Of a stretch of DNA of 64,000 bases, positions 25,775 through 48,839 are shown piece after piece. Made by a program: the position numbers and the translations under genes. Numbering within the stretch: position 1 is the first letter of the stretch; every line of letters starts with the position of its first letter. The stretch is from Crocinitomicaceae bacterium. Lineage in GTDB: Bacteria; Bacteroidota; Bacteroidia; Flavobacteriales_D; Crocinitomicaceae. The stretch spans positions 62,001 through 126,000 of the forward strand of contig JAQWHI010000018.1 in assembly GCA_029249445.1 (NCBI GenBank), given 5' to 3'. The notes beneath the pieces were generated by a model. That model had not been told where the DNA came from, searched no databases, and was given only the letters and a program-made list of their open reading frames with translations.

Positions 25775-25782
25775 TATCTTTG
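25775..25782 (+). promoter_or_regulatory. -7 promoter element TATCTTTG for rpsO
   Basis: A perfect TAnnTTTG match 46 bases upstream of the rpsO ATG, with TTTT 20 bases before it as a possible -33 element. The leader includes CCGTCCAACGGG, whose CCGT/ACGG arms could pair into a small hairpin. Confidence 0.55.
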
Positions 25783-25828
25783 CACCGTCCAACGGGACTA
25801 CATAAAAATCATTTAAACAAATATTGGA

Positions 25829-26098
25829 ATGTATTTAGATTCAAAAACAAAAGAAAAAATCTTCAAAAAACACGGAGGTTCAGCAACAAACACTGGTTCG
25901 CCAGAAGGGCAAATTGCTTTGTTCTCGCACAGAATTGCTCATTTGACTGAGCATTTGAAAAAGAACCGTAAAGACTACGGAACGCAAAGAGCGTTGCAGT
26001 TGTTGGTTGGTAAGCGTAGAAGCTTATTGGATTATTTGAAAGCAAAAGATATTGAAAGATATCGTGCAATCGTTAAAGAATTGAAGTTACGTCGTTAA
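25829..26098 (+). CDS. rpsO: 30S ribosomal protein S15
   Basis: An 89-residue protein, exactly the usual S15 length. It binds the central domain of 16S rRNA early in 30S assembly. Recognisable blocks are GSPEGQIALFSHRIAHLTEHL (central, residues about 22-42) and LVGKRRSLLDYL (about 59-70). It stands before pnp, an order also found in E. coli and many other bacteria, but here a strong terminator-like hairpin separates the two genes. Confidence 0.98.
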   Translation: MYLDSKTKEKIFKKHGGSATNTGSPEGQIALFSHRIAHLTEHLKKNRKDYGTQRALQLLVGKRRSLLDYLKAKDIERYRAIVKELKLRR

Positions 26099-44877: not shown

Positions 44878-46713
44878 TTACATTTCTTTCACAAATTCTG
44901 AAAATACCATTTTGTGGTGTTCAAGATCCATGCTGGCACTGAGTGCAACGCGAACAATGTAATCCTTGTCACCTTCCTTCGTGGTTCCTTGTGTTGAGGT
45001 TGCTGGAATTGTCCAGTAACAGCCTTTCAATTGGCCGTAGCTTACACAAAATTTACTTTCATTCGGAATCTCGCTGATCATCAAATTGATTAATTTCAAG
45101 TTCAATGCTCTTTTGTGGTTTTCTCTTTTTTCTTCAGTAGTACCTTTCGTTGGAAGGTCCAATGAGAAAACGGACGGTGTAAAACCTTGTTCAGCAAGTT
45201 CGTGTGAAACGAAGTTTATTTTTGCTGTCGGTAGTATTTGCTCAACAAAAGTTACAAATTCTCGCGTGTTGAGGTATGCATCGTGTATGCGTTGATTCAT
45301 GGAAGGCAGTTGTTCTGCCAATAGTTCGTATTGCAGCGCTGTTGCTTCGTTATCACAAATGTTGAGGTGACGGTCTATTTTTTCCATTACAAATGCTGCT
45401 TTTTTGTTCGCTATGCAGAATCCGGCCGTGCAGCGTCCTCCGCTGGGGAATTTTGAGCCACTCACATAGGAGATGGTTTGTACGTCTGCAAGAATGTCAT
45501 TGTCGCCCAAAAAATGAACGTTTGGGCAGAAAGTCTGATCCAGAATAAAAATAGGGGCGATTGCATTTGTTCCGTTGGATGTCGATCGATTTTTGCTGAG
45601 TACCGCCTTTAATTGCATTAAATCGGGAACTTCAACCCTCGGGTTTGTTGGTATTTCAGCGATGATGTACGGTATGGCATCGAGTTGCGCAATTTTGTCA
45701 AGCACAACGTCAATACTTCGCACCATGTCTTGTCCTCCATCAACGGGTAGATCCATTACCTCAATACGTTCGCTGCAGCCTGCAACACGTCGTGCTTGAT
45801 CGTTCGTTCCTCCGTAGCAGTTTGGTGGAACAATAAATTTGATGTCTTTTCCATTGTGTTGCTCTATTGCATGATCTACCAGCCCCATCATTATTGCATA
45901 TTGTATTGAAAGTCCACTTGATCCAACAGACGGGGTGGTCTGTGCGCCTGTGATTTCCTGAATTGATTGGATAACTTTGGCTTTGTTTGTTGATGAATCA
46001 ATTGCGGCTGGTCTTGGCGGATTCCCAACAAATTGGTTGAGCACATGTACTGTATTGGCGGGAGTGATTGCGATTGTTTCTCTCCTTCGAACGTGCTGAA
46101 TTTCTGCAACTGCATTTTGTGTTCCATTAACAACCAAGATACTTCCGAAATTGTGATGCGTATTGATCTGGAAGTCGGTATTGGGGTGGATTTTAAAATT
46201 GCAAATATCTTCTTTTTGAGTAAGCAGTATTGTGCTTCCATTGTGATCAGGGATGTTCGCTGAATTGTCAATTTGAATCGTTTCAAAGTTGTAACCGTAG
46301 ACTTTTTTTATTGTTGCGGCATCAAAGCAATCCGGTAATCTCCCAACGTGAAGAATTTTAGTGTCCTCTCCTTTAAAGAGGTTGGTTCTTAAGATGGCGA
46401 GTATTGGTGTTGTTGTGGATGAAAAACCGATAATATTTTGCGCATCGATGTCATGTGTTTTTGCAATTCCCCATTCGAGAAGGCAGGAGAGTGGATGTCC
46501 GAGGCGAATATAATCGTATGCTGTCGGCAATTCACTTAGTGCTTCAGTACTCGAGATGTTATTTTCAAACAACTTTTCAAGTTGTGCAAGAAAGTCTACT
46601 TTTGCCATTTTCTCATCGTAAATATCTAAGCGATGGGTAGTTAGATTCAGCCAATCTGCTGGCATTTTTTGAAGTACTTCCTTGATATATTGTAGCGTTT
46701 TATCGGCCTCCAT
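44878..46713 (-). CDS. Large PLP-dependent enzyme, Cys/Met-metabolism-like fold, reaction unknown
   Basis: A 611-residue protein about 200 longer than usual members of the cystathionine-gamma-synthase-like group. The probable PLP lysine lies in VSGSKFPSGGRCTAGFC (Lys about 418), preceded by an aspartate block FILDQTFCPN (about 390-399). GSSGLSIQYAIMMG (about 266-279) looks like the phosphate-holding turn, and IIAEIPTNPRVEVPDL (about 350-365) matches the ENPTNP-type block of that family. The first 240 residues have no domain I recognise. It stands alone between the helicase and a MORN-like gene. Sulphur amino acid metabolism is possible but not supported by neighbours. A minus-strand TATCTTTC near 46736-46743 is a weak promoter candidate. 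Confidence 0.75.
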   Translation of the reverse strand: MEADKTLQYIKEVLQKMPADWLNLTTHRLDIYDEKMAKVDFLAQLEKLFENNISSTEALSELPTAYDYIRLGHPLSCLLEWGIAKTHDIDAQNIIGFSSTTTPILAILRTNLFKGEDTKILHVGRLPDCFDAATIKKVYGYNFETIQIDNSANIPDHNGSTILLTQKEDICNFKIHPNTDFQINTHHNFGSILVVNGTQNAVAEIQHVRRRETIAITPANTVHVLNQFVGNPPRPAAIDSSTNKAKVIQSIQEITGAQTTPSVGSSGLSIQYAIMMGLVDHAIEQHNGKDIKFIVPPNCYGGTNDQARRVAGCSERIEVMDLPVDGGQDMVRSIDVVLDKIAQLDAIPYIIAEIPTNPRVEVPDLMQLKAVLSKNRSTSNGTNAIAPIFILDQTFCPNVHFLGDNDILADVQTISYVSGSKFPSGGRCTAGFCIANKKAAFVMEKIDRHLNICDNEATALQYELLAEQLPSMNQRIHDAYLNTREFVTFVEQILPTAKINFVSHELAEQGFTPSVFSLDLPTKGTTEEKRENHKRALNLKLINLMISEIPNESKFCVSYGQLKGCYWTIPATSTQGTTKEGDKDYIVRVALSASMDLEHHKMVFSEFVKEM

Positions 46714-48763: not shown

Positions 48764-48764
48764 G

Positions 48765-48839
48765 GGTGGAAGATGGGGCTCGAACCCACGACCCTCGGTA
48801 CCACAAACCGATGCTCTAACCAACTGAGCTACAACCACC
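48765..48839 (-). tRNA. tRNA-His (GTG anticodon), with mismatched acceptor stem
   Basis: On the minus strand the cloverleaf is clear: the D arm GCTC/GAGC, the anticodon stem TCGGT/ACCGA with loop TTGTGGT (anticodon GTG), the T arm GTGGG-TTCGAGC-CCCAT, and the extra G at position -1 opposite C73 that marks tRNA-His. The acceptor stem is unusual: the 5' strand is GTGGTTG and the 3' strand CTTCCAC, so pairs 5-68 and 6-67 are T-T mismatches while 1-4 and 7 pair. Bases after C73 are CAAA, so no CCA is encoded. A minus-strand TATATTTG promoter (48864-48871) and a downstream hairpin terminator frame it. Confidence 0.85.

Follow-up and report, generated by a model that had tools for sequence, protein, structure and literature searches.

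A large PLP enzyme of Bacteroidota that probably carries a degenerate second copy of its own fold

The window, by which we mean the whole 64,000-nucleotide stretch of the Crocinitomicaceae contig, contains an open reading frame that begins with ATG, has the sequence AAGGAG a few bases 5' of this start, and encodes a protein of 611 residues (Table 1). The frame is no chance one, since the protein belongs to a family whose conserved segments are spread over the entire length, including the N-terminus. The family alignment has 109 rows, with a minimum pairwise identity of 60% and a median of 71%; the window protein appears in it twice, and since the same or nearly the same species are present in both genome collections (L003/L030, L002/L027 and L004/L043, each pair with the same neighbours) a few loci are counted twice; 105 of the sequences are distinct. 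Sequence searches with the window protein itself found little. Pfam gave no match of note, with PF01053 absent at E ≤ 1, and a match to CdvA over residues 485-536 (E 0.038), below the cut-off of that model, was taken as chance. PF01053 is matched at E ≤ 0.1 by 44 of 60 family members, with a best value of 6.2e-12. The matches of the window protein to CGS-family models in NCBIfam (CGS, cystathionine gamma-synthase) are all sub-threshold, and no cut-off is reached. No PDB sequence was matched by the window protein at E ≤ 0.1; the full family profile found BesB, its F231Y variant and Corynebacterium glutamicum MetB at E 0.29-0.4, and a profile of the N-terminus found C. glutamicum MetB at E 0.85. 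No orthologue of known reaction was thus found, either in the PDB sequence searches (nothing below E 0.29) or by an NCBIfam cut-off. Among the open-access literature matches listed, no title or abstract opening dealt with the family or with a CGS pseudo-dimer formed by fusion, and no intermediates between the family and canonical enzymes were seen, at the thresholds used, in the sets of genomes from relatives, order and phylum.

Table 1. Features of the 611-residue gene, and the RNA elements detected, with positions in the window.
Feature	Position	Strand	Basis
Whole gene, two-copy CGS-family PLP enzyme (predicted), 611 aa	44878..46713	-	ORF, homologues, conserved segments
N-copy, residues 1-231: putative truncated second CGS-family N-arm and PLP large domain, without PLP-lysine segment	46021..46713	-	Model, VIA, HMM, alignment gap
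DYIRLGHP, residues 67-74, invariant in 109/109 rows; D67/Y68/R70 correspond to Glu59/Tyr60/Arg62 of the adjacent subunit in human CGL	46492..46515	-	Alignment, hhalign, PMC10160035
QHVRRRE, residues 206-212; Q206, H207 and R209-E212 invariant	46078..46098	-	Alignment
C-copy, residues 232-611: predicted catalytic copy, complete save Y-x-R segment	44881..46020	-	VIA; hhalign E 7.3e-6
SSG, residues 265-267, PLP-phosphate loop by homology	45913..45921	-	Alignments
YGGT, residues 300-303; Y300, ring-stacking Tyr by homology	45805..45816	-	Alignments
D392, PLP N1 ligand by homology	45538..45540	-	Alignments
K421, Schiff-base lysine by homology	45451..45453	-	109/109 rows
R588, substrate alpha-carboxylate Arg by homology	44950..44952	-	Alignments
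S15-Flavobacteria ribosomal protein leader	25775..25831	+	61.5 bits
tRNA-His (gtg)	48764..48838	-	

The C-terminal portion of the protein, here called the C-copy, has the character of a catalytic domain. In the model of the full-length protein (pLDDT 83.8, pTM 0.88), residues 230-611 match CGS-family chains in VIA at Z 29.3-32.1 with 13-19% identity over the 50 matches listed, a count in which Fub7 and TM1270 are included as CGS-family members and the others are assigned by title. Seven residues, Tyr300, Asp392, Ser418, Ser420, Lys421, Ser558 and Arg588, are invariant in all 109 rows, and the Lys, Asp, Tyr, Ser and Arg sites align with their counterparts in canonical enzymes. By its modelled fold and this catalytic residue set, the core is predicted to be a CGS-family PLP enzyme (Cys_Met_Meta_PP). 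The original prediction, of a large PLP enzyme of the Cys/Met-metabolism type marked by an IPTNP block and a lysine-site block, is thus borne out; the two blocks lie at residues 354-358 (IPTNP) and 418-426 (SGSKFPSGG).

The same prediction held that the first 240 residues match nothing and left them unexplained, and here the outcome is different. For 54 of the 60 members the N-terminus by itself matches the CGS-family HMM TIGR01329, with a best E of 1.2e-6, although for the window protein the match is weak (residues 64-118, E 0.013). A model of residues 1-235, built from an alignment of 60 rows (pLDDT 88.1, pTM 0.88), found only CGS-family structures among the 50 matches listed by VIA, at Z 10.9-12.2 and rmsd 3.2-3.7 with 182-199 residues aligned; these alignments run from model residue 1 to residues 230-232 and cover, in human cystathionine gamma-lyase (CGL) for example, residues 16-262. 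In Foldseek, 49 of the 50 matches listed are CGS-family, with Fub7 again included, and the remaining one is MJ0158. The profile of this region, the N-copy, aligns with 20 canonical enzymes of related genomes collinearly over 157-161 columns, at hhalign E values of 0.03-0.05 and a probability of 1-2%, and has no similarity to the profile of its own C-copy (E 0.94). Given that the two copies lack mutual profile similarity, the case for a second copy is built on the modelled fold and the third family to which both are related. The canonical PLP lysine is aligned to a gap in the N-copy. The model, the structure matches and the HMM together point to a second copy of this fold in degenerate form, and we consider it very probable that a CGS-family second copy is fused in front of the catalytic one.

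What the N-copy has kept is unevenly distributed. Invariant residues make up 20 of the 34 positions in segments 62-81 and 205-218, the latter picked after inspection, compared with 7 of 123 in residues 82-204; a helix segment (198-213) that had been chosen beforehand on the basis of human CGL comes only 42nd for conservation among 216 windows of sequence. The first of these segments contains an Asp67-Tyr68-x-Arg70 motif that is the same in every one of the 109 rows. In the second, Arg210 aligns with Asn224 of a canonical sequence (L120), a residue that we infer from alignment offsets to be the equivalent of Asn241 in human CGL. The active site of human CGL is built from two subunits, with Glu59, Tyr60, Arg62 and Asn241 supplied by the adjacent subunit, as PMC10160035 describes. 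Across residues 215-261, where the C-copy would be expected to have its Y-x-R motif, no Tyr or Arg exceeded 30% of the 109 rows at any position. The N-copy thus keeps the D-Y-x-R motif and the C-copy keeps the lysine set, implying that only one of two possible active sites would be complete. Because the copies are complementary in the residues they retain, we think it likely that the chain forms a built-in pseudo-dimer with a single composite active site. Residues 66-71, including Tyr68 and Arg70, have pLDDT below 50 in the full model and their pose is undefined; such low values would suit an interface loop, although they prove nothing.

A similar layout appears to exist in BesB (PDB 9aua; NCBIfam NF042918), encoded at NC_017585.1:683614-685080 on pSCATT (L157). 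The Foldseek alignment with BesB extends over 625 columns (TM 0.58/0.69), whereas none of the other 49 of the 50 matches listed exceeds 415, and at this length it should span both copies. In BesB a Y-P-R motif lies 136 residues ahead of SGM, compared with 199 for the equivalent distance in the 611-residue family; both motifs were picked up by the search pattern in 9 of 20 canonical rows, and there the distance is 30. BesB seems, like the family studied here, to have its Y-x-R motif in an N-terminal copy, well removed from the catalytic copy's SG motif, and its C-terminal core is likewise of CGS type (hhalign to the canonical profile, E 7e-19). The N-copy of BesB is shorter, however, with no detectable sequence similarity to that of the 611-residue family, and the NF042918 cut-off of 800 bits is not reached, 15 of 60 members matching at E ≤ 0.1 with a best value of 0.0075. 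For yeast Str2, a fungal CGS, the comparison uses one sequence of 638 letters, in which Y-P-R is 255 residues ahead of SGM and the C-core is again CGS-type (E 8.4e-20), but which matches the family profile weakly, over 55 columns only (E 0.0097). The BesB N-terminus resembles that of Str2 (BLASTP 4e-11 in a two-sequence comparison), and BesB may descend from a fungal-type CGS lineage; the N-copy of the 611-residue family has no sequence similarity to either N-terminus. The canonical CGS/CGL/CBL/MGL enzymes (PF01053) share the fold and the catalytic set of the C-copy but have one copy per chain, with 379-446 residues in 20 rows.

The family has a patchy distribution over the phylum. Counting the source genome in each sample, matches were found in 38 of the 60 relatives-set genomes, nearly all full-length, in 69 of 178 genomes of the order (a sample drawn at 95% completeness), and in 9 of 296 genomes sampled over the phylum. 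A second phylum sample gave matches to profile A1 at E ≤ 1e-6 in 12 of 395 genomes, again with the source genome counted; all 12 are close family, so that no distant two-copy relatives were found there. Among species genomes of bacteria and archaea 348 relatives were detected, of which the best 80 all carry Bacteroidota titles, in keeping with the original suggestion of a Bacteroidota enzyme. No family match on plasmids was found by tblastn at E 1e-3. Of the partial matches (G006, G013, G058, G393, G394, G457 and G466), two, G013 and G466, were examined as possible variants without the N-copy, and both end at contig ends. In a tree of 81 sequences, with strong support on only 19 of 78 inner branches, Flavobacteriales, Cytophagales and Saprospirales are scattered through the gene tree. 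The order labels are not followed (13 changes, against a mean of 14.6 for shuffled labels), which suggests frequent transfer of the solo gene among Bacteroidota.

That the gene is isolated, as had been noted from the window, holds more widely: among 108 loci, whose flanks extend to 8 kb at most and often less, no family of neighbours is shared by more than 6. The canonical enzymes here are of type A (best NCBIfam model NF005871), type B (NF006003) and type C (NF005455), type A having as its best model a cystathionine gamma-synthase and being also close to a gamma-lyase model. A type A gene occurs in the flanks of 6 of the 108 loci, in about 4 independent groups. In L019 it follows the family gene on the same strand, 36 bp downstream, and L116 has this same gene; in L111 it is divergent, while in L038/L079 and L051/L085 it lies at a greater distance. 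About 4 occurrences compare with about 0.3 expected (Poisson 0.0004), where the expectation supposes one such gene in every 3000, an estimated gene number, among 1009 flanking ORFs. No type B or type C gene lies in any flank of the 108 loci. In L055 and L066 the immediate neighbour is a convergent CBS-like gene, and a weaker relative lies in L087. A search for regulatory RNA in 20 fetched loci at Rfam gathering scores gave only a tRNA; in the window it gave the S15 leader and the tRNA of Table 1, neither of them upstream of the 611-residue gene.

The sulfur pathway of the source genome, which is 94% complete, offers some context. A full-length CBS is present, together with a single family member of canonical size, a PRK07049-type enzyme whose neighbouring gene we read as an Lrp-like regulator. 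The genome gave no match to type A or type B enzymes, to MetX or to HTS/MetA, and none to a CysK-like protein in the search with the CBS model, where the only other match covers the C-terminal CBS-domain part. With CBS present and types A and B absent, there would be two candidates for the step from cystathionine to cysteine, the PRK07049-type enzyme and the 611-residue enzyme. Among the genomes of the order, 64 of the 69 carriers of the family also have a type A enzyme. Replacement of type A by the 611-residue gene was considered and set aside as suggestive only: 5 of 178 genomes lack type A at E ≤ 1e-90 (the source genome G000, G001, G012, G024 and G355) and all 5 are carriers (hypergeometric 0.008), but 4 of the 5 belong to a single genus that has the family gene in 16 of 17 genomes, and the inclusion of G402, which has no family gene and a type A match of only 1.1e-94, gives 5 of 6 (hypergeometric 0.033). 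In the set of 60 genomes, 22 of the 28 with MetX carry the gene, compared with 16 of the 32 that lack MetX (Fisher p 0.03), which somewhat favours a biosynthetic role, yet inside the genus the association is gone (15 of 18 with MetX, 12 of 16 without, p 0.68). A strict dependence on MetX is not supported, 16 of 38 carriers having no MetX match below 1e-30. At that threshold MetX is lacking in 32 of the 60 relatives-set genomes, the source genome included, and HTS/MetA is found in none of the 60; several of these genomes may depend on outside methionine.

What reaction might such an enzyme catalyse? We envisage a PLP enzyme of the CGS family (fold type I, gamma-family) with the build of a fused pseudo-dimer, in which the reciprocal site would be dead because the N-copy lacks the lysine segment and the C-copy lacks Y-x-R. 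The chemistry would be ordinary for the family, with transimination at Lys421 followed by elimination or replacement at the gamma (or beta) position of a sulfur amino acid, and its most likely place would be in transsulfuration, converting cystathionine to cysteine or carrying out a neighbouring reaction. The reaction is probably an elimination or replacement of this kind on a sulfur amino acid near cystathionine, and for the whole proposal, composite site and transsulfuration-type chemistry taken together, we judge the balance to be slightly in favour. Cystathionine itself as the main substrate is a tentative suggestion. Type A enzymes have an Arg five residues after the stacking Tyr and a Glu before the active-site Ser (8 of 8 rows); in all 109 rows of the family these two specificity positions are occupied by Asp305, two residues past YGGT, and Val557, which would count against cystathionine. 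The presence of type A in most carriers would also count against it, as would the PRK07049-type enzyme of the source genome, which could itself perform the step.

A rival reading is gamma-elimination on another amino acid, in the manner of a methionine gamma-lyase or for removal of a reactive amino acid, by an accessory gene passed among Bacteroidota. The pair Val557-Ser558 agrees with the V-S found in type C, for which a methionine gamma-lyase model ranks second in NCBIfam; the gene tree departs from the order labels and the gene is patchy over the phylum; and BesB, of like layout, acts on an unusual amino acid, going by the name of its model. Type A genes nevertheless lie near the family more often than expected, and no recurring neighbour family hints at another pathway, so that we regard this reading as somewhat unlikely. 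Less probable again is a fungal-like cystathionine gamma-synthase of the same architecture, making cystathionine from activated homoserine and cysteine. Yeast Str2 shares the long spacing from Y-x-R to SG, an adjoining type A gene could encode the next enzyme, and the association with MetX over 60 genomes, if not inside the genus, is in the right direction; but with neither MetX nor HTS/MetA matched in the source genome no source of O-acylhomoserine is seen there, HTS/MetA is missing throughout the 60 genomes, and many carriers lack a MetX match. A reaction new to the CGS family we likewise hold to be unlikely. That the N-terminal region is instead a regulatory or binding domain, merely resembling a PLP half-domain and lying away from the active site, would accord with the variable middle of the N-copy and the undefined pose of Tyr68 and Arg70, but is improbable, since the invariant residues are on elements that in human CGL reach the neighbour's active site (PMC10160035) and a conserved Y-x-R is missing from the C-copy.

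The fused pseudo-dimer with one composite site, our preferred reading, gives an architecture that appears unusual, as though the protein bears its own partner subunit. One chain seems to carry both sides of the site, with one of two sites kept, and would represent a case of fusion and complementary degeneration. A family whose member in the window reaches no Pfam or NCBIfam cut-off thereby gains a fold, predicted active-site residues and a possible part in supplying cysteine, and the additional N-terminal regions of BesB and fungal CGS may likewise be read as second copies. More speculatively, and with the odds well against it, the family could be a second line of fused pseudo-dimers within the CGS family, apart from that of BesB and the fungi, which arose by duplication, fusion and complementary loss, took up a reaction not known in the family, and spread by horizontal transfer among Bacteroidota. 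If this were true, the asymmetric composite site left by complementary loss would have left the enzyme free to take on chemistry that has yet to be described for the CGS family.
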